Source of the DNA: Galdieria sulphuraria | Taxonomy: Eukaryota; Rhodophyta; Bangiophyceae; Galdieriales; Galdieriaceae | Assembly: GCF_000341285.1 (NCBI RefSeq) | Contig: NW_005178436.1 | Span: 86,479 to 150,478 of the forward strand | Reading direction: 5' to 3' | DNA length: 64,000 bases | Part shown: one piece after another, positions 7,219 through 55,139 of the stretch | Position numbering within the stretch: position 1 is the first letter of the stretch | Layout of the letters: the number at the start of each line of letters is the position of its first letter | Notes under the pieces: model-generated | The model's database searches: none | Told to the model about the DNA's origin: nothing | The model's input: the letters and a program-made list of their open reading frames with translations, nothing else | Program-made: the position numbers and the translations under genes

Positions 7219-7569
7219 TCATGAGAAGAGAGGATAGATTTGGACTGGTCCCGAATAATTGGGGAAGTAGAATCCACTGTTTTGAGTATAAGTAGAATAA
7301 CTGGAGGAATAATAAGGCGTATAAGTTGGATAAGGTTGAACTGTCGGATAAGGCTGTACTGTTGGATACACATATGGCTGCACAGTTGGATACACCGGAT
7401 AAGAATAGGAAGGATATACTGGATAGGAATAGGAAGGATAACTGGAATATGTAGAATAAGAAGGATACCATCTTTGTTTTCCCATGATGGGAGATCCCAT
7501 AGCAAGTATAACTATACATGATAGTGTCAATACTACAATCGAATAAAGTCTATGCATCATCATCATCAT
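7219..7569 (-). CDS. Secreted Tyr/Pro-rich repeat protein
   Basis: Single exon, 116 aa. It opens with five Met codons, then a signal peptide (LYSIVVLTLSCIVILAMGS). The mature part is almost only Tyr, Pro, Ser, Thr, Val and Gln in short repeats: YPSYSYPVYP twice, YPTVQPY three times, then SSSYSTYTQNSGFYF. There are no cysteines after the signal region. Such compositions occur in structural wall or matrix proteins, where tyrosines can be cross-linked oxidatively (general knowledge; role here is inference). No family is recognised. A low-complexity protein can be an artefact, but the clean start, signal peptide and stop argue for a real gene. Confidence 0.7.
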   Translation of the reverse strand: MMMMMHRLYSIVVLTLSCIVILAMGSPIMGKQRWYPSYSTYSSYPSYSYPVYPSYSYPVYPTVQPYVYPTVQPYPTVQPYPTYTPYYSSSYSTYTQNSGFYFPNYSGPVQIYPLFS

Positions 7570-31780: not shown

Positions 31781-32306
31781 TTAGGAACTCCATGCAGCGT
31801 AACATTGTTTGCCTGAAAAAAGGAAGATGTCAAACTTTGTAACCATTGCCTAAAGTCTTTACTCACAGTCTGTACAGCATTCAATAGGCACCAGAATGCA
31901 TTGACTTGTTGGGGCATAACCTCCTCTGTTGACAAGTTGATTTTCTTCTGCATTCAAAAGGCGATAGCTGGATGAGCCATAAGAAGAAGATGATTGTCCG
32001 TAGGATGGAGGTTGAGAATAGGATGGAGGTTGAGCATAAGTTGGGGCTTGGCTATAAGTTGGTTGAGAAATAGGGCAAAGTTCAGCATATTGACCTAGTT
32101 TACATAACCTTGTAAGCTAAATTGGATGATACTCTCTTTTTTTTATACATACAAGTAGTCATACAGCATTCCTTGGAGGAAGAAGAAGAAGAAGAAGAAG
32201 AGTAACCTCCTCTCAAGAATTCATTGGATGCCATTTCTGATACAACTGCTGCATATGATGCAACTACAAAGCTTAAGAAGATTACAGCAATTCCAAAAGA
32301 CTTCAT
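31781..32306 (-). CDS. Secreted Cys-rich RGGY protein, paralogue A
   Basis: Three exons: 32306..32153, 32094..31867, 31812..31781; 137 aa. A signal peptide (MKSFGIAVIFLSFVVASYA) is followed by FLRGGY, a serine run of nine, CC-x3-CQY-x3-C, a repeat region of PTYSQ/PPSYSQ units, a second RGGY, and C-x2-VP-x2-CC-x2-C-x2-CY near the C-terminus. Both introns are phase 1 and each splits a Cys codon (T/GT and T/GC). The same spacing, repeats of motifs and intron positions occur in the gene at 37822..38405. Nine cysteines in a conserved pattern suggest disulfide-bonded extracellular domains. No known family is recognised. Function unknown; wall or surface protein is a guess. Confidence 0.8.
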
Positions 32307-33485
32307 ATTTAGCTTCACTAGATACTTGGTTAAGTTTCAAAATATTCTATGAATAAACGAATTATAATGAAATTCATGAAATGTTTTGCTCTTTTAAAGC
32401 TCTTTCTATGGAAACTGGCACGTCATTTTGCAAGAAATGTTTGGTTGAGAGCGATCCAAAGAAATGTCCAATCCAATCTCGTTTGAATGTGTTGGCAAAC
32501 AGTAAATGAATGGTAGGTTGCTTCGTTATTTGAAAATTTACCGTCCTTTCACTCTCAGTAGAGTCGTTTTCGTTCCAATACAATTTGAGGGAGACTTTCT
32601 GGAGATATTTTGACCATACGAAGTTTACCTCTTGTGTTATAACTCATATATCTTGTAACTATGGTGATCAGTCCTTTGAACATTTTGATAAAAGATAATC
32701 TTTTAGCCAAGAAAGTAATAGAAATATAAAAATATTTTTTATGCTTTTCTTTTACAAATTTCAGTATAAGCCTATCCGTCTTACTTGTACTTTGTCAGAA
32801 TTGGCTTTTGTTTGACTCGCACTAAAAGTAACTAACCTAATATTCTTCGAACAAGTGTGGCTACTTTATGCATAGCTTTGTGACTCCTTGAATTAATTTT
32901 CAAGGCCAAGCTAGAAAGTTATTTTGAATATTTGAAATGTCTATACGAAGTACTCTTAGACGGGAAATAACTAATTTCCCATTCTAGTGTTGCACGAATT
33001 GATAAACCAAACAGAATGATCTAGAATCATTTTTGTTTGCTTATGGAATGAAAACCTAAAAGCGCTATTCTTCTGCAGTCTTTTCTTATTCTAATCCATG
33101 CAGACAAATAGTAGAGTTTGATGTTCTCAGCGAATACTTTGCTAACTCAACGAACATTCTCAACTACGTGATTTAAATAATTTCTACCAAATCCATGAAT
33201 ACTTTTTTTACTTGTTATCTTGCATCTGCATACTTCCAAGTTTCATTACTTTCTATATGATGATTTGTGACAGTAGCATTTTTGAAATCTGGAGGCAAAT
33301 TTCGGATATTGCACTCATTGAATTGCTCGACGCTTTGCGGGGTATTGTTATTATTATTATCACCGCGACAACCAAAAAGAGAAGGTTATCCGATATTTTT
33401 TCAAATTTATTGCCTTTTTGATTAGTGAAATAGAACACACCTCTAGTCTACTTTATTTTTCAAACCAATCACAAGTAGAAGAGAC
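32307..33485. other. 1.2-kb interval with one doubtful minus-strand open frame
   Basis: Upstream of the divergent secreted-protein and importin genes. An open frame without an ATG at about 32374-32650 on the minus strand reads VWSKYLQKVSLKLYWNEND and ends RALKEQNIS. It looks protein-like, but I could not connect it to a start exon with good splice sites; an ATG at 32679 opens a different frame. Possibly a small unrecognised gene. The rest (32700-33480) shows no coding signal. Confidence 0.4.
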
Positions 33486-36400
33486 ATGGACGTGACTCAA
33501 CTTTTGCTCCATGCTCAGTCAGCGGACTTTAAATTGAGATATGAAGCAGAGCAAAGCTTGAAGCAACTTGAAGAAACCAACTTCCCCACTTTTGCAGCTA
33601 GTTTAGCAACAGAATTAGCGGACCAGAGTAAACCTCCCTCTGTAAGACAGTTAGCTGGTCTTGTCTTGAAAAACAAATTTGATGCACGTTCCAGCGTAAG
33701 AAGAGAAGAACTTGCCAAGAGATGGGCTGCAGTAGAAGATACTGAATCCAGACATAAAGTAAAGGCTTTGTTGTTGCAAACTCTTTCCTCTGAGGTGCAA
33801 GAGGCAAGACATACAGCCGCACAAGTGGTTGCTGCTTTGGCAGTCATTGAGCTGCCATTGGGTTTGTGGAATGAGCTTATTGAAATATTATTGGGCTATG
33901 TAGTCAATCAGAATTCGAGCGACGAACTTAGAGAATCGAGCATCATGACGCTGGGTTATATGTGTGAAACTGCTTCACAAAATGGAGAAGTTGATATTTT
34001 AAGTCAAAGAAGTAGTCAAATTTTAACTGCAGTAGTAAGAGGAATAGAAGAACCAGAAGAAAAGTTCAATATACGCTTTGCCGCGATATCTGCTTTATTG
34101 AATGCTATCGACTTTGCAAAGGCTAACTTTGAAAGTGAAACGGAAAGGACATATATCATGAATACAGTTTGTAAAGTTGCATCGGGTTCAGATGAGCGCA
34201 TAAGGATAGTTGCATTTGAATGTTTTGTAAAAGTAAGTGCTCCAACTCAACTTGTGTTCATAAACTTAACTTGTAAAAGATTGCAGAGTACTATTATTCA
34301 CATTTGGATGCTTACATGAACATGTTGTTCCAATTAACTGTGAATGCTATTACTAATGATGTTGAAAGTGTAGCTCTACAAGCCATTGAATTTTGGACGA
34401 CCATTTCAGAGGAAGAAATTTATCGAAATCAGGAAGCCGAAGAATTGAATAAAAAGAGTTCCTCAATGGTACGTTGCTTTATTTCATTCTTTAGTATTTC
34501 ATGAACTGTACTATCTTCACTTTAGAACTATATCGTTCAGGCATTGCCATATTTGTGTCCAGTCTTATTGCGTTGTCTTTTATTGCAAGAAGAAGATCAA
34601 GACGAAGATAGTTGGAATAGAGCTACTGCTTCAGGCACATGTCTTACGCTCGTTGCTCAAGCGAGTAAAGATGCTGTCGTTCCCTTTGTGATTCAGTTTG
34701 TACAAGAACATATTGGAAATGATACTGATTGGCGTTCGAGAGAAGCTGCAACATTGGTAGGTATTTATTTTTCAAAGAAAGAGAATGTTTGGCACTTATG
34801 AGGAAAAGGCGTTTGGTTGTATTTTGGAGCCAGATGGACCTTCTGCACAAGGATTGGAACCTCTTGTTACGGAAGCCGTTCCGATTTTGCTCAATCTATT
34901 GACAAGAGACTCAAATGTGGTGGTTCGTGACACTTCTGCTTGGACTCTTGGAAGAGTTTGTTCTTTAAGTAAAGAAGCAACGAAACGATATCTTCAACCA
35001 TTAACGGAAGCGGCATTCAACGTAAGAGATGAACATTTGGTTCATTTTCAGACTTTTTGAGGGAATGATGATATTTAGGCTTTGGAACGAGATGAACCAC
35101 GAGTAGCATCCAATGCAGCTTGGATCTTTTTGAATATTGCAGAGTCTTTTGAAGAGGACCATGACAAATTAAATAATGAGTTGGATATATATGTTGAGAA
35201 AATAATGTCTAGTCTCTTCTATGCTGCTGCAAGAGAAGATGCAGCGGAACATCATCTTCAAGTTTCGAGTTATGAAGCATTTGCGCCACTGGTACATTGC
35301 GTTTCTGTTAGTTGTCAGAATTTTATATTTCAGGCATGTGTCGGTCTCATTAAGAATTTTTGGTCAATGACAAGTTGTGAATTGTTTAGAGTATACCTCT
35401 ACTCTTAAGTAGATTGGAGGCAACCTTTCAAATGGAAGTGAATGGAACCGAAGCAAGAAACGAACAAGCAGAAACTCAAGGCCTTATATGTGCTTCACTA
35501 CAAGCAATCATACAACGCCTTCGACATGACGTTGTAGAATATAGTGATCGAATGATGCAGGCATTTTTATTTGTTTTATCTTCTGGATCTTCTTCTTCTG
35601 AACATGAAGATGCTTTGTTAGCTATAGGAAGCTTAGCAGATGCTATAGGAGAAGATTTCAACAAGTATATGTCTCACTTTGCTCCGTTTTTGAGTGTTTC
35701 TCTTCGAAATTGGGATCAGGTAAATAGATTTTGTTATGTATAATGATACAAACGATTTTCTAACAATTTACAAGGTGGACCTTTGTAAAGTGGCTGTAGG
35801 TGTAGTCAGTGATATCTGTCGCTCATTGGAACTTGGAATTCTTCCGTATGCTGATGATATTGTTATGTATTTATTAAGTGCCTTGAGTAGTCCAGAATTG
35901 GACCGAACAGTAAAACCTCCCATTATCACATGTTTTGGTGATATTGCATTAGCGATAAGTGGAAAGTTTGAGCGTTATTTCTCTCATGTTATGCCAATAT
36001 TACAACAAGTATGTATTATTCAATATTTTTTGCCAGCAACTTAATTTGCATTGACTAGGCAGCTCAAGCTTCATTGGCTGTGCATGTATCTGAGGATGAC
36101 TTTGATACTCAAGATTGGGTTATTGAACTTCGAGAAAGCATTTTACAAACATGTACTTCCATTATTCAGGGCTTGAAAACGGATAATAGGTTTGCAATGA
36201 TCCAAATTTTATTTTTGATAGATTACAAAACTCAATTTGCTGGTCTTAGGCAAGAGTTGATTATTTCTGGAAGACATTCAGAATGGATACTTCAGTTCTG
36301 TGAACGTGTTATTCAAGAAAAATTGTGTTGCACCGAAAAGTTGATTGCTGCTGTTGTTGGTGTGGTTGGAGATATTGCGTCTGCTCTGGAAAGTTTGCGT

Positions 36401-36511
36401 CCCACTTTGAAACAGATGCCGTGGATTCAGCAGATGATCGATCAGTGTTCAAAGAGTCCTGATAAAGATATCCAAAATGTGGCAATGTGGGCAAAAGGAA
36501 TCGTATATTAA
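33486..36511 (+). CDS. KPNB1: Importin subunit beta-1
   Basis: Nine exons: 33486..34232, 34280..34468, 34526..34756, 34809..35021, 35079..35339, 35390..35719, 35775..36008, 36059..36189, 36250..36511; 865 aa, against about 876 in animals. HEAT repeats run throughout; recognisable blocks are LAGLVLKNKFDAR, ALQAIEFWTTISEEE, EAATLAFGCILE, VVVRDTSAWTLGRVC, EPRVASNAAWIFLNIAE, EDALLAIGSLADAIGEDF, VKPPIITCFGDIALAI and LRESILQTCTSIIQGLK. It carries importin-alpha cargo through the nuclear pore and binds Ran. The last intron (36190..36249, 60 nt) has no stop and a multiple-of-three length; splicing gives NRQELIISG and matches family length. Donors at 35340 and 36190 are weak and placed by homology. 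Confidence 0.92.
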
Positions 36512-36633
36512 AAGAGTTGAAGATTGAACTTGATATCGTTTGCCTTGCGAGCAATAAAAAACAATACAATCGTTCACATTTATTTTTTTCTAAGAACACA
36601 CTTTGGTATTCATGTAAGAGTAACCGCTTTCAT

Positions 36634-37283
36634 TTATGGTATTATCGCTGACGTCGGAGCGGCAGTAGCAACAGAAGTCGGAACAGCAGAAGCAGCAGCC
36701 GTCGGAACAGCAGTTGTTGTTGGTGGTGCTGGAGGAACTAATAGAAACTCCAGAAACTGAACTACAGAGTTCCCAGCAGCAACGTCAGGAGAAATAACTG
36801 GGTCACCTTCGACAGAGTCTCCTACGATAACACTGTTAGTGATACTTTTTATTCATATAAGCTTCTCATACCAGTCGAATTTTTCGTAAAGTTAAGAGGC
36901 AGTCCTATCAAGGAAACAACGCCTGTTGTACCACTAGAAAGGGAACTAAACTCCACTGTTGTATTCACTGTACTAGCTACCAGTAAACGACCTAAAAAGT
37001 CTATTGCTCCAGTTACGTTTTGCTTGGCTGCACTTAGTGCACCAGTGGCGTTGGCTGATGAATTCTCCCAGGCAGTGTCATTTGAAGCAAGGAAAGTATA
37101 GTTCAGAAAGGTGTTGTTGTATATGCTTGTCAGATTGGTCAGTTCCATACTTTGTACGGTAAACGTATAGTCTTTTTGACTCTGTAGCAACGAATATATT
37201 GTTGTAGCATTAGAAGCCGCCAAAGTAACTCCTAACAAAACTGAAAGCCATATGAAACTAAGGTATATTTTCGTGAATGTCAT
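36634..37283 (-). CDS. Secreted fasciclin-like (FAS1) protein with Thr/Pro/Ala tail
   Basis: Two exons, 37283..36872 and 36821..36634, 199 aa; 50-nt phase-1 intron. A signal peptide (YLSFIWLSVLLGVTLAAS) leads into one FAS1-like domain. The H1-type block is NYTFLASNDTAWEN and the H2-type block VVQFLEFLLVPP, with eleven or so N-x-S/T sites in between. The last 40 residues are PAPPTTTAVPTAAASAVPTS-like, typical of O-glycosylated or wall-anchored tails. FAS1 proteins mediate adhesion at the cell surface or wall. Similarity is by pattern and moderate. Its place beside two secreted Cys-rich genes suggests an extracellular-protein neighbourhood. Confidence 0.72.
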
Positions 37284-37821
37284 TGTCTACACTGTAGTAG
37301 CAAGAACTTCAAAGGCACAATCACCTTATAAGGAATGAAATCATTTATTACCACGTCAGAGTAAACAAATGACTTTCTTCATGTGTCGATTCAGAATCGA
37401 AAAGTCATCATATAAAAGAAGATTAGGGGGCCACTTTGAGTTTTTCCAATGAATGATAAATCCTTCCGTTTCAAGTTATCAAGAGAGTGTAGGCTTGTAT
37501 AAGTTTTATATAAATGAAATAAACTATAAATACACTCCAAAGTCTGGTCCTTCGTTCTTCTTCCACTCATTTGTCTCAAAGAAAATGAATGAAGCGACAC
37601 TAATTTTTGACCGATTGGTACAGGAAAAGACAAATTTGGCCGAGTCTGCAAAGGACAAGGATTTCGACTCCACTTGTTCAATCCACAGGCAGACACCACT
37701 GCAGAATGGAGGACGAGCTTCCACGTTTCACCGGATCTTCCACAGACTATAGCTTTTTAAAGAAGCCAATTTTTCTTGATGCCCTACATAGAATTTGGTA
37801 ATTTGTGAAATAAGTATCAAT
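37284..37821. other. Divergent upstream interval with a doubtful small open frame
   Basis: 538 nt between the FAS1 gene and paralogue B. TATA-like TATAAATA occurs near 37525. A 56-codon frame at 37585..37752 (MNEATLIFDRLVQEKTN...) starts with ATG, but two other frames are also open here and no family or splice support is seen. It could be leader sequence of paralogue B or a small gene. Confidence 0.4.
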
Positions 37822-38405
37822 ATGAAATCTGCAATCTTCGCTTTCCTTGTTGTAGCACTTTGCACTGTCGCTATCCAAGCTTCTCCTCTTGAAGACACTT
37901 TAGATGCTTTTATGCGAGGTGGTTACCAAGCACCTAGCCACGCACCAAGTCCCGGCTGTTGCAAATTGAGCTGTAAGTATGCAGAAGTCGTCAAGGGGCA
38001 CTGCTGAACATCGACTAGGTCAATACACTCAGATTTGTGAACAAGTGGTCCAGACTCAGCAAGTTATTCAGACTCAACAAGTTATTCAGACCCAACAAGT
38101 TATTCAGACTCAACAGGTTGTCCAAAGTCAACAAGTTTCATCAGCATACGGACGAAATGAGGTTTCAAGAGGTGGATATTCTTCCCAATCGGTAGCTCCT
38201 GCTCCAGCACCTTCTTGTGTTTCTGTCCCAGTAAAATGCTGTATCGAATGTAAGTGTATACGTCTAACAATCTTGTTGCCTTGTAACTTTGTAAATAGGC
38301 TCCTCTTGCTACCAGCAAGTATCTCCAATTTCTACTCCCGTACAAGTTTCTCCTTCACAGCAAGTCTATCAAACACAACAAGTTTCATCGCAATCAGCAT
38401 ATTAA
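37822..38405 (+). CDS. Secreted Cys-rich RGGY protein, paralogue B
   Basis: Three exons: 37822..37972, 38019..38249, 38299..38405; 162 aa. Signal peptide MKSAIFAFLVVALCTVAIQA, then FMRGGY, CC-x3-CQY-x3-C, a tandem QTQQVI repeat (about five units), SRGGY, and C-x2-VP-x2-CC-x2-C-x2-CY, with a QQV-rich tail. It matches the gene at 31781..32306 in every one of these landmarks and in two phase-1 introns that split Cys codons; exons 1+2 total 382 nt in both. Only the low-complexity linkers differ (Pro/Ser/Tyr in A, Gln/Val in B). Together they define a two-member family not known to me. Probable extracellular structural or adhesive protein (inference). Confidence 0.82.
38049..38139 (+). repeat. 18-bp tandem repeat coding QTQQVI
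   Basis: About five near-identical 18-bp units of CAGACTCAACAAGTTATT with a few substitutions, inside exon 2 of paralogue B. Unit number may vary between strains. Confidence 0.9.
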
Positions 38406-42725: not shown

Positions 42726-43790
42726 TCAACGACGATACCACTTTCTTGAAGCAAATTCTCGGTCACCTTGTTCAGCTGCTTTTTCCAATGTTGTAAAAGG
42801 AGGCAGTCTCCATTGTCCACCATGTAAACTAATAGAAGAACTGCTTTCAAATGACTCTGTTGGATTATTTAAAAGAATCTGCACGGAAAAGTCGCCATGT
42901 TCTTGTACCATTCTCATCGTTGGCTCTTCATAGGAACTTGTGGGGGAAAAACTAGTGGTTAAAGGAATTTCATTCCACTCAGGGACTTTTGAATGACACA
43001 AGTTACCACCAGAAGCATCCTTTTCAAGCATTTGAGATTCATCTATTACAACTGAATCACTGTCTGTTCCTCGTTGCAAGTGATCCACAAAATAGCAGTT
43101 TCTTTGTTGCTCCAATAACCAAAGTTGATACTTGTAAAGTCTTTTTTTGAGCTTCGTCTTTACTTCAGGCTGTGAGTCGTCTTCCGTAGCTAACAATTTC
43201 TTTTCATTCTCTGCTAAAAGACACAACCTACGCAACGGATCACTACTCTTCACTATTTTAGAATCTTCCGATGTTTTCCTCAAGTCACTAGCTTTTCTTT
43301 CTGTATTGGGCAAGCTCCAATATTGATATTCTTCCTTTGAATGAGTATTATTTGCTTTCACCATATTCCATTTACATCTTGCACCCACTCCCTTTGCACA
43401 GTGTTTACTACAGAACCTACCACTGCCATAAAGACCGTCGTGAGCTGCACCGCAAGATTCACAAATATTTATAAACCAAGAGGTTCCATAGTTGGGAGGT
43501 CCATTGACCATAACTGTATTTGCTTCTTCAAGAATATTGGAAGGTGTTTCTACGTCCACAAGGGTTGCTTGTCTTTTTCTCTCTGAGTTGTATGCAAGTG
43601 TGCAACTTGAATCTGATTTTGGGTTATTCTTGTTAGGATAAGGACTAGATTCAAGCAACGCGGGAGAAGGCTCCCTAGGTAACCTGCCTTCTGAAATAGC
43701 AGTGTAGTTCTGGTCAGAGTCCCCTTGGTTCTTCTTCTTCTGTAGAGTTGCAAGTTTATATACTAGAGAAGAGACAGAAGCATCTGGCAT
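42726..43790 (-). CDS. Zinc-motif nuclear-type protein of unknown function
   Basis: Single exon, 354 aa, mostly disordered and Ser/Glu/Lys-rich. One compact Cys motif near residues 109-140: C-E-S-C-G, then GLYGSGRFCSKHCAKG. The GSGRFCS-x2-CA core recurs in fungal and plant proteins next to C-x2-C and probably binds one zinc. A coiled Lys/Leu segment (KTKLKKRLYKYQLWLLEQQ) follows. No enzymatic motif. The likely site is the nucleus, given basic clusters, but nothing more can be said. The start is an ATG in an AT-rich leader. Confidence 0.75.
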   Translation of the reverse strand: MPDASVSSLVYKLATLQKKKNQGDSDQNYTAISEGRLPREPSPALLESSPYPNKNNPKSDSSCTLAYNSERKRQATLVDVETPSNILEEANTVMVNGPPNYGTSWFINICESCGAAHDGLYGSGRFCSKHCAKGVGARCKWNMVKANNTHSKEEYQYWSLPNTERKASDLRKTSEDSKIVKSSDPLRRLCLLAENEKKLLATEDDSQPEVKTKLKKRLYKYQLWLLEQQRNCYFVDHLQRGTDSDSVVIDESQMLEKDASGGNLCHSKVPEWNEIPLTTSFSPTSSYEEPTMRMVQEHGDFSVQILLNNPTESFESSSSISLHGGQWRLPPFTTLEKAAEQGDREFASRKWYRR

Positions 43791-44156
43791 AGTGACTTGA
43801 ATGTCTGGTTTCCCAAATAAACAGCCTATTCGAAGTTATGAACCGTCACACTTTTTGTCTAATCCTTGTCAACAAAAGCAAAATCGGAGACACGCGTATG
43901 AAAATGCACCACAAATTCAGTGCTGACCAAAACGGATTTCAATTTGAGAATGTCTTTTTCAGAGAAATAGACGAGGAGAAGATATTTCTCAGATATATAT
44001 ATATTAATATATATATATACAATGAAATTCAATCACTTGTACACAGACCATTCACACACAGAACTCAATAATATTTCTCTATTTATGTCATAATATATAA
44101 TCCATATCATTATATATATATATATATATATACTTTTGGTTATTCTTGTATCGATT

Positions 44157-46291: not shown

Positions 46292-46612
46292 GATAAATTA
46301 GCCATGAAGATGTGATGGACTTTGAAGAGTCCTTTGTAGAAAATTTTTTTATAAAAAGACTCTATCTCAGAACTTGTTTTCATGCTTTAAGGACAAGTCG
46401 ATTGGAAACAACGAAACATTAGTTGACTGTAATAGTAACCTTGATAGGATATTCTCACTAACTTGTGTCAACAATATCTATTCATCTCATTAGATATGAA
46501 AATTTAAGATGATGAGACAGACAAGACACGGTGATTGGCCAAAATAGAAAAAGACCGGGTTGGGAATTTTTTGAAACAGGAAAAGCGTTAAAGCTTACGA
46601 TTCTCATCATAT
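46292..46612. other. Intergenic interval, SART3-like to GT61-like
   Basis: 321 nt between tandem genes. Nothing beyond untranslated or promoter sequence is visible. Confidence 0.5.
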
Positions 46613-48157
46613 ATGTATAGAATGATTCATTCGGACCCAAAGCACTTTCGTCTTTCAACGAAAAATACCAAAAAGGTATACTTCCTTATTGGAGTGAGAA
46701 TTATTTGTATATTGTATTTAAGTTTATATCCTTTCCTTGACATAAATACTTTGAAAGGAACAAAGAAAAAAGTAGACCCTTCTTACTGGAACGTCTATCA
46801 CAGTGTAGAACAACTCGCCTCGAAATTGGAGGTTTGGGAGCACAAAAACTTGAAAAATTTTCCTATTTGTCGTTTAGAAAGGGTTTGTAAAACTGATAAA
46901 GGTCAATGGATACTTCCAAAATGGTTAAATAACTATCATTTCTGGTTAGAAAAATGTGGTCTCAACCAATCCTTAGTTTGGTATGCAGATATTCAGGATC
47001 CTATCCATTTGCATAATAGTTCATTCCAAGGTGATCTTATCGGTACTCAAGTCTTACGTTGGCAGCTTCCTCATCTCATTGCCGACACAATATGGATCTT
47101 GCTCTGGAGGCATTTTATTTATTACTCTGAAAATACAAAGTCATGGTCATTCACATGTGTGAGTTCAGCTTCCAGACCATGTATTACAACTCTCTTTTGG
47201 AGTGCCTTGGAACCAGTTTTACTTAACTATCAAAGACCTAAAGAAGAAGATTGGACGTCGCAATACTTACAACAAGTATTATTGAGTACCATACCAACAC
47301 AATGGAAAACCATTTCTCCCGAATCTCAAGGTTGCTTTCGGTCAGTCACTTTTAGTAGACTTCGACCCGCTCATATTCCAAAACATGTGTTATCTCAAGA
47401 AGACATATTTTTCTTAGAAAATGGAATCTTAAGGGAAGACCGTTTAAAAAGTTCCTTTCAGAATGCTAAAGACACTGGGAAGTGCATGATCACCATTGCA
47501 TTAAAGAATAATAGTGTTGGATATTCAAGCAATCGTTTGAACTCTTTTCATGAAAATCTATTTGAACAAGTTGCCAATCTGATTCCTAGACTTGCATTGG
47601 AGTCTACTACCGAAACTTATCGACAGGACATAAATATTCGTTTGGTAGATTTTCATACTAATGATCTTGATGATTGGATAAGTGCAAAAGAGAAACTTCA
47701 AGCAGTAGATGTTGTAGTCACTGATCATTCCATTGCTAACAGCCAGTTCCTATTGCTACGTCCCAATACTACTGTCATTGAAGTGCTTCCATTTTCATAT
47801 TCGGCAGTTATGTTTAAAGAACTTGCATTGAGCTTGGGATTGGATTATCATTCTGTATCTTCCAATCCAGATGAAGAAACATTCCTTGATTGTCTATTTC
47901 GATATGAACAGGACCAACATTCTCTTTCCCAACTAGTTCAAGCATATCGTCAAGAGGCAGAAAACTGGCATCGTGGCATATATCAACAAACGCTTCATTT
48001 GGATGATCTGGAGACTACTGATAAGGTTCGAATGAGTCGACATTGTGCTCGACAACAACGGATTTCAGCAAATGCATCGGAAATAGCTCACTTTGTTATC
48101 CAAAGAGCATTGACTCCATGTCTAACTGGGCTTTGGTATCATCAACATAATATGTAG
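46613..48157 (+). CDS. Type II membrane glycosyltransferase, GT61-like
   Basis: Single exon, 514 aa. A short basic N-terminus and one hydrophobic helix (VYFLIGVRIICILYLSLYPF) give a Golgi type II layout. The C-terminal part resembles GT61 (DUF563): LQAVDVVVTDHSIANSQFLL, where relatives have VLIGVHGAALTN, followed by LRPNTTVIEVLPFSY, and KELALSLGLDYHSVSS. GT61 enzymes add xylose, arabinose or GlcNAc to glycans or wall polymers. Here the GVHGAxLTN motif is changed to TDHSIANSQ, so activity and specificity are open. The assignment is by pattern and moderate. Confidence 0.65.
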   Translation: MYRMIHSDPKHFRLSTKNTKKVYFLIGVRIICILYLSLYPFLDINTLKGTKKKVDPSYWNVYHSVEQLASKLEVWEHKNLKNFPICRLERVCKTDKGQWILPKWLNNYHFWLEKCGLNQSLVWYADIQDPIHLHNSSFQGDLIGTQVLRWQLPHLIADTIWILLWRHFIYYSENTKSWSFTCVSSASRPCITTLFWSALEPVLLNYQRPKEEDWTSQYLQQVLLSTIPTQWKTISPESQGCFRSVTFSRLRPAHIPKHVLSQEDIFFLENGILREDRLKSSFQNAKDTGKCMITIALKNNSVGYSSNRLNSFHENLFEQVANLIPRLALESTTETYRQDINIRLVDFHTNDLDDWISAKEKLQAVDVVVTDHSIANSQFLLLRPNTTVIEVLPFSYSAVMFKELALSLGLDYHSVSSNPDEETFLDCLFRYEQDQHSLSQLVQAYRQEAENWHRGIYQQTLHLDDLETTDKVRMSRHCARQQRISANASEIAHFVIQRALTPCLTGLWYHQHNM

Positions 48158-48329: not shown

Positions 48330-49574
48330 CTAATCATAAACAGGCTCCACGTCGACATCCATCTCTCTGGGAATCACCATTCCTGCCAACTTACCGCGAA
48401 CCTGCAACTCTAATTGTGAAACAAAGTCAGAATGAGCCTTCATATACTCCACACAAGCATCCTTTCCTTGTGCAATATTGTTTCCACCATAACTATACCA
48501 AGAACCTTTTCGAATCACCAAACCAAGTTCTTCTGCTGCATCCAACAGACAGCCATAAGTATCAATTCCTTTACCAAATAAAATATTCAACTCAACTACA
48601 CGAAACGGAGGAGCAATCTTATTTTTGGCAATTTTGACTTTACATCGTATGCCGACATTATCCTTGAGCGTGTCTTTGCGTCGTATATCTAATCTCACCG
48701 ATGAATAATACTTTAATGCCATTCCGCCTGAAGTTACTTCTGGACTACCAAATAGAACGCCTATTTTTTGTCGCAACTGATTCAAAAATATAACTGTACA
48801 CTGACTACGACTCATGGAACCAGTAATCTTCCTCAAAGCTTTGGACATAAGTCGTGCTTGAGCACCCATTTGTTGATCATTCATATCTCCTTCTATCTCA
48901 GAACGAGGAACCAAGGCTGCTACAGAGTCAATAACGACAATATCTACTGCAGCGGAACGAACGAGTTGATCCACAATTTCCAACGCCATTTCTCCCGTGT
49001 CTGGTTGCGAAACCAACAAGGACTGAATATCCACTCCTAGTGCAGAACCGTAAGCTGGATCCAAGGCATGTTCCGCATCCACTGTAAGAAAAAAAAGATT
49101 GAGAAAGAAAACGAGTTATCAAAGTTGAATCATACCAAAAGCGGCAACTCCTCCCGATTTCTGAACCTCCGCTATAGCGTGCAAAGCTAAGGTCGTCTTA
49201 CCACTACTTTCTGGACCAAATATTTCAACAAGTCGTCCTCGTGGATAACCGCCACCTAAAGCAGCATCCAGTGTAACGCTTCCACTGGGAGTGGTTTCTA
49301 CTTTCATACTTTCGATCTCACCCAGACGCATTATCGACCCACGACCGTAAGTTTTTTCTATTTGTTGTAGGACTCCTTCTAAAGCTCGTTGTTTTGCATC
49401 TTTCTGTGTCAATCCCTCTCCGTTGGAAGGTTGTATATTTTTGGGCAATGCCATTGCGAAATACCCTTTGGAGTATGGAAAGTCTCCTCGTCTACTACAG
49501 CTAGATTTGGATTTGCTTAATATTCTTGAGCTGGAGGTAATCCATACAGAAGGAATATCCAGAAAACTGACCAT
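48330..49574 (-). CDS. RECA: Organelle RecA (plastid-type)
   Basis: Two exons, 49574..49136 and 49081..48330, 396 aa; 54-nt phase-1 intron. A presequence of about 45 residues (Ser/Lys-rich) precedes a bacterial-type RecA: Walker [10 protein letters not shown] (near 120-127), [54 protein letters not shown] and [18 protein letters not shown]. The [20 protein letters not shown] block is closest to cyanobacterial and plant plastid RecA. It repairs organelle DNA by strand exchange. An internal ATG (MALPKNIQP) is a possible second start; the upstream one gives the targeting sequence. Confidence 0.95.
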
Positions 49575-53509: not shown

Positions 53510-55139
53510 ATTTCTCGGGCGAACAAAGAGAAAAAACCGTCAATCGAAATATACTTGTCATACAACAGAGCAGCCGTTGTTCTGTTGTCTTTCCCTGCTT
53601 CATGAGGGTCCGAAAATCGGCCAGCACGGCAGAAAGTAGAAATGGATGAGAGTTGCCAAAGTTCTGCATTATGGAGATTGTTGTGAATAGAAACACAATT
53701 TGAGGACTGTTTCTTGTAATCATGGCATTTTATTTATTGCAAATCAAAACGCAGGACATGGTCGAGAGTTTTGTTGATGCTATACAGAATGTATCAAAAG
53801 TTTGAATAGGACTTGGAAAGGATTTGTATTCTTGTCATCCTCTTTATCTATTGATTGCTTCATGAATATGTATTTGTTGTTTTCAACAATGCATCCATTT
53901 ACATGGACTGTCTTTTCTTTTGGAAACTTAAGTCTCTTCATGGTTGTCATTGTAGAAACATTATTCACGCGTAGCCTCATGCCGGATTATTCACTTTTTG
54001 TTTTTGTAAATGGCTTGTTTAGCTATTTATAGTTACTCATGTTTGCACTTTTGACAAGTCAATGCATTGAAATTATGGCTGCACAAGGTCTGGTTCTAGG
54101 AAAGCATTCTTTCGTCCTTTTTCCTTTGAGATTCATAACTCGATAATTTGTAGGCTTGGTATACTAACAAATGTATCGATTTTAAGTTGAAAACATTTAC
54201 AATTTTGGACTTTTAAGAACGCATCTTGGTGTTGTAATACTGCTGAAGGAACTATCACACAAGTCAAGAACAATAATGGGTATAGGTAACGAGAACTTTT
54301 GCTCTTTGTCCTAATTAAATTATACGCTACAAAGGCTAGCTTCTGATCAAGCTAACTCTGTTCTTTGGCATCAGTGTCGATATTCTTTCAACATTACCGA
54401 TCTGTTAATGCATAGACTTTTGAGTCTACAGTTTTGGCAACACCATTCATTGACCCTTCATTGAATTCGAGTAAACCTTGAAAGATTTTCTCCAAAAACT
54501 ATCCGTTCGCTGTAAAAGAAACGACAAGCCTATAAAAAGGCAAAGTATTGAGGAAGTTAGTATACATTTCTTGTCCTTTTTTTAAAATGGCTTGGACTGG
54601 TCTATTCAGACTCTTCAAGCTCTTCAAAAGTCGTCTTCGATCGTTTTAGTTCAGCAAAACTACCTCCCAGTCATACAAGTTATTAAAGATGGAGGTTGTT
54701 TTGCAAAGTGTATTTTGAAAGACTGTAGGAAGAAAAAGTACTCCACTGATTGAGTGTTCTTCTTGAGCCAATCCAAGAAACCATGAAAAACGGAAAGCCA
54801 AGTATATTAACAAGTACTCTGTGCTGTTACTTTTCAGTAGTAGAGTGGATCTTATAAAAGTGGCCACTATGGCATCTTTTGGATATCCTGACTAGGCTTC
54901 ATCGCTTGATTTCCCAACTCGTTACCTCGGTGAAGTTCCCCTTCTTTTCACTCAGTGCTTCTATCGCTATTATGCAACTCAAGCCGTTGTATTGACTTTT
55001 TCTATATTTTTTAAGTTATTTATGTATCTGACTATTCGTTTTAGAATCTCAAGGTCTCTCGACTTGTGTCCTTAAACCCGATCTTCGTCGAGAAAGTTGC
55101 GTCAAGATTGAATTCTGAGGCTTTTAAAACTCTATATTG
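53510..55139. other. 1.6-kb gene-poor interval
   Basis: Weak frames only: a plus frame at 53802-54032 and a minus frame at 54646-54870 that has no ATG but reads protein-like (AFRFSWFLGLAQEEHS...). No family, no consistent splice structure. It could hold worn remnants of genes. Confidence 0.5.

Follow-up and report, generated by a model that had tools for sequence, protein, structure and literature searches.

Two paralogous cysteine-rich RGGY genes of Galdieria sulphuraria as candidate cell wall protein genes

A 64,000-nucleotide (64-kb) stretch of contig NW_005178436.1 of the red alga Galdieria sulphuraria (positions 86,479 to 150,478; referred to as the window) contains two small genes that share an unusual frame of RGGY motifs and cysteines. 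Under predicted splicing, both are intact and have three exons: gene A (31781-32306, minus strand) encodes 137 amino acids (aa), and gene B (37822-38405, plus strand) encodes 162 aa. The two look like paralogues with synonymous sites near saturation. Their products may be small, secreted structural components of the wall of a Galdieria-type walled cell, a reading of the sequence to which we give as much belief as doubt. Should A and B be wall proteins, the makeup of the Galdieria wall would become directly testable, and the two would be natural acid-stable polymers.

Structure of the two genes

The order common to the A and B proteins is a signal sequence, an acidic stretch, RGGY, CC-x3-C with the last Cys split by the first intron, QY-x3-C, a repeat linker, a second RGGY, and C-x2-VP-x2-CC-x2-C with the last Cys split by the second intron, followed by x2-CY. 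In gene A, exon 1 (32153..32306, minus) encodes the signal sequence, the acidic stretch, the first RGGY, and CC-x3-C up to the split codon of Cys 52; exon 2 (31867..32094, minus; 228 nucleotides [nt], phase 1-1) encodes QY-x3-C, a linker of the [SAG]Q[AP]P[ST]Y type, the second RGGY, and C-x2-VP-x2-CC-x2 up to the split Cys 128; and exon 3 (31781..31812, minus) encodes x2-CY, the C terminus, and the stop. Gene B is laid out in the same way, with exon 1 (37822..37972, plus) carrying the signal sequence, the acidic stretch, the first RGGY, and CC-x3-C up to the split codon of Cys 51; exon 2 (38019..38249, plus; 231 nt, phase 1-1) carrying QY-x3-C, a QTQQVI linker, the second RGGY, and C-x2-VP-x2-CC-x2 up to the split Cys 128; and exon 3 (38299..38405, plus) carrying x2-CY, an additional Q/V/S-rich tail, and the stop. 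The motif sequences are CCMTTCQYAELC and CILVPIECCTDCKQCY in gene A and CCKLSCQYTQIC and CVSVPVKCCIECSSCY in gene B.

All four predicted introns are bounded by GT..AG, with lengths of 58 and 54 nt in A and 46 and 49 nt in B. An earlier sequence-only reading of this DNA had proposed that two phase-1 introns cut Cys codons at the same places in both genes, and this holds for 4 of the 4 introns, each of which splits a Cys codon after its first base (T/GT at the first intron and T/GC at the second). Its statement that exons 1 and 2 together measure 382 nt in both genes is likewise correct (154 + 228 in A and 151 + 231 in B). The equality is genuine, although exon 1 is 3 nt longer in A and exon 2 is 3 nt longer in B; it comes from linkers of nearly the same length and could be a coincidence.

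The splice sites of A and B were picked by hand, and the introns were deduced from the sequence alone. This choice by hand is what would favor an explanation in which the gene models are wrong or the copies nonfunctional and the common pattern is an artifact of splice choice. Such an artifact is highly improbable, given that two loci without DNA similarity yield one frame with GT-AG introns of 46 to 58 nt, that the adjoining importin-beta model has eight introns (47 to 98 nt, 8/8 GT..AG), and that the codon differences between A and B are at saturation.

The frame is confined to these two genes within the window. In a six-frame translation of the 64 kb, exact RGGY occurs at four sites, all of which lie within A and B, and C-x2-3-[VIL]P-x1-3-CC occurs at two sites, both within A and B. 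No third copy was found in the window with a profile built from A and B, the top match outside both genes having an expect value (E) of 0.099. The features proposed to define an RGGY/Cys family (a signal sequence, two RGGY motifs, nine ordered mature Cys residues, and two phase-1 introns in Cys codons) are present in both genes (2/2), from which this definition was itself derived.

Divergence between the paralogues

The A and B proteins match each other with a BLASTP E of 2e-11 in one single comparison. With the first 20 residues removed, their local alignment score is 148, and 2,000 shuffles average 39.5 and reach 78 at most; this, together with the splicing and the motif scan, confirms the earlier claim that the two are paralogues sharing a signal peptide, two RGGY motifs, and the Cys patterns. 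All nine mature Cys residues, both RGGY motifs, CQY, VP, and CY are kept between them. At the DNA level, the similarity of A and B is not above that of shuffled sequences (24 versus a mean of 24.5 and a maximum of 37 in 200 shuffles). At 34 core positions, the two proteins have the same residue and that residue has a choice of codons; the codons differ at 20 of these, and the expectation at saturation under an independent codon draw is 17.6. Because the proteins are alike, the DNA is no more alike than shuffles, and the codons are saturated, the split between A and B is old, and selection has maintained the Cys/RGGY frame while the linkers were replaced.

Both linkers are built on 18-nt (6-aa) tandem units, of a Pro/Ser/Thr/Tyr/Gln type in A and of the QTQQVI type in B, where the 18-nt array spans 38040-38137 on the plus strand. 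The spacing from Cys 4 to Cys 5 is 59 residues in A and 60 in B although the sequences are unlike. The low-complexity linkers had been described as the sole difference between the proteins. Replacement of the linker between A and B is supported.

Exon 2 and a possible internal duplication

Exon 2 has phase 1 at both ends in both genes, so that its skipping or duplication would leave the reading frame intact. Its removal in silico leaves a single module, RGGY...CC-x3-C-x2-CY. When the module halves were compared with each other, the numbers of 5,000 shuffles that reached the observed score were 53 for A1/A2, 7 for B1/B2, 2 for A1/B2, and 167 for B1/A2. With RGGY deleted, the resemblance between first and second halves is not significant (1,132, 286, 2,407, and 1,640 of 5,000 shuffles, in the same order), and no shuffle of 5,000 reaches the score of the corresponding halves A1/B1 and A2/B2. 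What is left as a duplication signal beyond RGGY is the order of RGGY, CC, and split Cys, plus the equal intron phase; the probability of a phase-1 intron hitting some Cys codon is about 2 to 3%. These comparisons give a hint of a module duplication inside the gene, for which the support in the aligned residues is RGGY alone.

Searches for relatives

No Pfam-A family matches either protein above its curated cutoff, the best match of A being DUF3446 (12.7 bits versus a cutoff of 25; E, 0.15) and B having none at an E of ≤1. In NCBIfam, a library that serves prokaryotes, neither of the two proteins was matched at an E of ≤1. PHROGs gave no clear match, since those of B to phrog_6342 (E, 0.042) and phrog_114 (E, 0.35) are taken as chance and none is listed for A, and PDB sequences gave none at an E of ≤10 for B or for the A+B profile. 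The same profile picked out 50 pattern stretches in IMG/VR and 97 in prokaryote genomes, with none confirmed in either, and phage records searched with B as the only query returned nothing at an E of ≤1. Literature searches found no paper pairing Galdieria with RGGY, and those combining Galdieria, cysteine-rich, and secreted revealed no such family, as judged by titles and abstract openings.

The earlier claim that the pattern belongs to no named family is supported only against these libraries. By sequence, the family of A and B appears new against the collections searched, which have few red algal proteins and provide a weak test of novelty. A and B may be present in public algal annotations as hypothetical proteins.

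Properties of the mature proteins

Signal sequences were called by a hydropathy scan, not a dedicated predictor, and the mature chains were defined by placing the assumed cleavage site after residue 19 or 20. The highest 19-residue mean hydropathy of the mature chain is 0.75 in A and 1.13 in B, and neither protein has a later stretch of membrane-spanning hydrophobicity. Charged residues make up 11.0% of mature A and 7.7% of mature B, compared with 22.7% of the 18 stop-to-stop open reading frames (ORFs) of at least 200 aa in the window taken together, the lowest of which has 14.6%. Tyr accounts for 10 of 118 mature residues in A (8.5%) and 7 of 142 in B (4.9%). The Cys content is 6 to 8%, and the number of conserved Cys residues in each mature chain, nine, is odd; therefore, at least one Cys must be free or bonded to another molecule. 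Each mature chain has only three Arg residues, two of them within RGGY. Neither A nor B contains an N-glycosylation sequon, and no SPPP/SPP block (Ser followed by a Pro run) occurs in either mature chain.

The signal sequence, the lack of a later membrane-spanning stretch, the nine Cys residues, the low charge, and the 6-aa-repeat linkers of near-equal length are the sequence features from which a wall function could be built up. A and B would be secreted, their two modules of RGGY plus Cys cluster would form compact disulfide knots, and the linker would serve as a flexible spacer. Because nine is an odd number, a leftover Cys could form an intermolecular bond and give rise to an acid-stable polymer network. 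More tentatively, the Tyr residues of A and B could be joined further by secreted class III peroxidases, enzymes that are present in Galdieria but not in its lysyl oxidase-bearing relatives. The frame, the signal sequence, the selection, and the gene neighborhood are seen in the DNA itself; wall location, polymerization, and Tyr links are what we infer for A and B.

The distribution of Arg also bears on a different explanation, in which A and B are processed precursors, the Arg of RGGY being a cleavage site that releases two Cys-rich peptides starting with GGY, with a role in signaling or defense and with a linker that either acts as a spacer or is discarded. In both proteins, F-[LM]-R closes the short acidic stretch that lies between the signal sequence and the first GGY, V-[NS] precedes the second RGGY in both, two of only three Arg residues per mature chain sit in the motif, and the linker sequence is unconserved, all of which would suit a precursor. 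However, the site has a single Arg and is not dibasic, Gly-Gly-Tyr is fully conserved beyond the needs of a cleavage site, one product would be left with an odd number of Cys residues (four in cluster 1 and five in cluster 2), and the close agreement in linker length (59 and 60 residues from Cys 4 to Cys 5) is left unexplained. Processing of this kind is therefore considered distinctly unlikely.

The Cys clusters could alternatively indicate secreted metal or thiol buffering, with CC-x2/3-C clusters binding soft metals in acidic, metal-rich water. Nine Cys residues with CC pairs fit this idea. Against it, the Cys density of metallothioneins is far above the 6 to 8% of A and B, and neither protein matches a family in Pfam or NCBIfam. 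In excerpts of a study of Galdieria, gold and palladium adsorb to its surfaces, but the primary site is nitrogen, not sulfur, and sulfur oxidation is suggested as a possible promoter of gold reduction (PMC10815428). The nitrogen site does not speak for a role of Cys. Overall, a buffering function is very doubtful.

Genomic neighborhood and the wall reading

The local gene order is A (minus), importin-beta (plus), FAS1 (minus), and B (plus). The FAS1 (fasciclin) gene, which is divergent from B and was not mentioned in the sequence-only reading, consists of exon 1 (36872..37283, minus), encoding a signal sequence together with the bulk of the FAS1 domain, and exon 2 (36634..36821, minus), encoding the end of the domain and a Pro/Ala/Thr-rich tail, separated by a single phase-1 intron. 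With both exons joined, the 199-aa product narrowly passes the PF02469 cutoff (23.7 bits versus 22), and its top PDB matches are the FAS1 domains of TGF-beta-induced protein (E, 4e-4). It has 11 N-glycosylation sequons and no mature Cys. When the window was scanned by hydropathy for signal sequences, six rows came up, four of which were judged credible, namely, those of A, B, FAS1, and a Tyr/Pro/Ser-rich ORF; the other two are an internal Met of a sugar transporter and a weak row at 53723. The Tyr/Pro/Ser-rich ORF (7219..7569, minus; single exon, 116 aa) has 22 Tyr and 17 Pro in the 92 residues after its signal sequence, no Cys, and SYPVYP and PTVQPY repeats. It has no Pfam match at an E of 0.01 and is a candidate Tyr-rich wall protein and, by chemical kind, a possible functional companion of A and B. 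Homology of A or B to this ORF is unsupported, the weak unfiltered tblastn matches of the A linker (E, 0.044 and 0.19) being taken as shared low complexity. Under the wall reading of A and B, the FAS1 product and the Tyr-rich protein would belong to that wall as well.

Background on the cyanidiophyte wall is taken from excerpts of published reports. Cellulose synthase genes have been lost in the Cyanidiophyceae, and the wall is thought to be unique (PMC13353863); protein was reported to make up 50 to 55% of the wall of a Cyanidium (PMC13353863; PMC6508830). In Galdieria partita, FAS1 genes are present in 11 copies with expression exclusive to the walled diploid cells, and four class III peroxidase genes are all diploid dominant; the other three genera yielded no such genes, according to the part of the report used (PMC13353863). 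The same part gives lysyl oxidase (LOX) as present in cyanidiophytes except Galdieria, and none of the secreted wall-related types that it treats (FAS1, LOX, Hog, and trefoil) is like A or B (PMC13353863). Because the wall would lack both cellulose and lysyl oxidase, other cross-links would be needed, and secreted proteins with the traits of A and B would provide them through disulfides and, with less certainty, through Tyr links made by peroxidases.

The sequence-only reading had called A and B extracellular proteins, structural or adhesive. The structural half of this claim gains context from the FAS1 gene, the Tyr-rich ORF, and the published excerpts (PMC13353863), and it stays conditional; the adhesive half has gained no specific support. 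An extracellular role other than wall structure, such as adhesion to rock or cells or nutrient binding, would also agree with freely varying linkers, and secretion and a Cys frame alone cannot separate the wall from the medium. The low charge, the repeats, and the odd conserved Cys set suit polymeric structural proteins better, and the FAS1 neighbor also points to the wall, so we regard such a role as unlikely.

Several observations weigh against a wall function. A GPI-like (glycosylphosphatidylinositol) hydrophobic C-terminal tail is absent from both A and B; therefore, retention in the wall would require cross-linking or binding. B is just modestly Tyr rich. The charge of the FAS1 protein (8.5%) is as low as that of A and B, and low charge may be a general mark of the secreted proteins of this alga. 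The closeness of A and B to FAS1 could be due to chance, and FAS1 exon 1 by itself has no Pfam Fasciclin match and gives a poor single-sequence structure model (mean predicted local distance difference test score [pLDDT], 55). In addition, common promoter motifs in the 500-bp upstream regions of A, B, and FAS1 are unsupported: in the same sense, A and B share 7 8-mers and A and FAS1 share 11, and in the other sense they share 11 and 7, respectively, compared with a mean of 8.2 and a 95th percentile of 15 for random window pieces. B and FAS1 share 19, which exceeds that percentile, but their two upstream regions are for the most part a single intergenic stretch seen from both sides, which makes the comparison unfair.

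A broader proposal is that A and B represent a modular wall protein family peculiar to Galdieria or its class. The phase 1-1 exon, carrying the linker and one RGGY-Cys module, would allow exon duplication and linker replacement to create interlocking proteins that polymerize through disulfides and peroxidase-made Tyr links, replacing cellulose and lysyl oxidase cross-linking in an acid-proof wall. This proposal is speculative, and we are inclined to doubt it.

The importin-beta-type karyopherin gene (33486..36511, plus; an 849-aa model with eight introns) is regarded as a bystander that served as a control for the local intron style. Its introns are in phase 0 in seven of eight cases and in phase 2 in one, and its exon 1 matches Pfam IBN_N. 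Used as a query for stray algal contigs, this exon picked out 13 stretches in IMG/VR and 34 in prokaryote genomes, none of which was confirmed. The window looks eukaryotic nuclear, with the intron-bearing importin-beta gene, matches to PRP39 and NAA35, and a GC content of 32 to 41%. Such DNA fits Galdieria best. Introns are generally few in the other cyanidiophytes. G. partita is intron rich, with 16,347 introns in 7,832 genes (PMC13353863). In the 538-bp gap between FAS1 and B, a 55-aa ORF (37585-37752, plus; MNEATLIFDRL...) lies behind a TATA-like stretch and may represent either a small gene of its own or an upstream reading frame. Elsewhere in the window, a RecA of the bacterial type is encoded at 48330-49574 (minus) in two exons or pieces, with a Pfam match for 48330-49115 and the remainder recognized by eye; it is probably an organelle protein, which fits a plastid-bearing cell. 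Two further stop-to-stop ORFs have no Pfam matches at an E of 0.01, namely, one of 521 aa at 46592-48157 (plus), which we take by eye to resemble a GT61-type glycosyltransferase, and one of 369 aa at 42726-43835 (minus).

Comparison with known systems

The RGGY frame and the 6-aa linkers have no known counterpart in coccidian oocyst wall proteins. These nevertheless offer a parallel to the wall reading of A and B in that a protective wall is made of secreted proteins, with Cys-rich beside Tyr-rich ones, and an oxidase and peroxidases link the Tyr-rich proteins via dityrosine, as described in the excerpts used (PMC7389338). The likeness is one of analogy, not of a demonstrated sequence relation.

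Like the predicted products of A and B, plant extensins and further Tyr/Pro-rich wall proteins linked by peroxidases are secreted, repeat rich, and Tyr bearing. A and B differ from extensins in having no SPPP block (by the usual criterion, Ser followed by at least three Pro residues), in possessing the nine-Cys frame, and in having no Pfam match above the cutoff. The linker of A resembles extensins in its Pro-[ST]-Tyr units. Class III peroxidases are present in G. partita (PMC13353863).

Among cyanidiophyte proteins, the FAS1 wall proteins of the Cyanidiophyceae are, like A and B, secreted and low in charge (PMC13353863), and a gene of this type sits between importin-beta and B. They belong to a different family, the FAS1 protein here having no mature Cys and 11 sequons, whereas A and B have nine Cys residues and no sequons. 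The TFF-like (trefoil) proteins of Cyanidium, Cyanidiococcus, and Cyanidioschyzon, which the excerpts list as absent from G. partita, are secreted, and their main role is assumed to fall in the walled diploid phase (PMC13353863), as would be the case for A and B; no Pfam trefoil match was found in A or B at an E of ≤1. A and B form a sequence family, unmatched in the libraries tried, whose role is probably the one that Cys- and Tyr-rich wall proteins have in other organisms.

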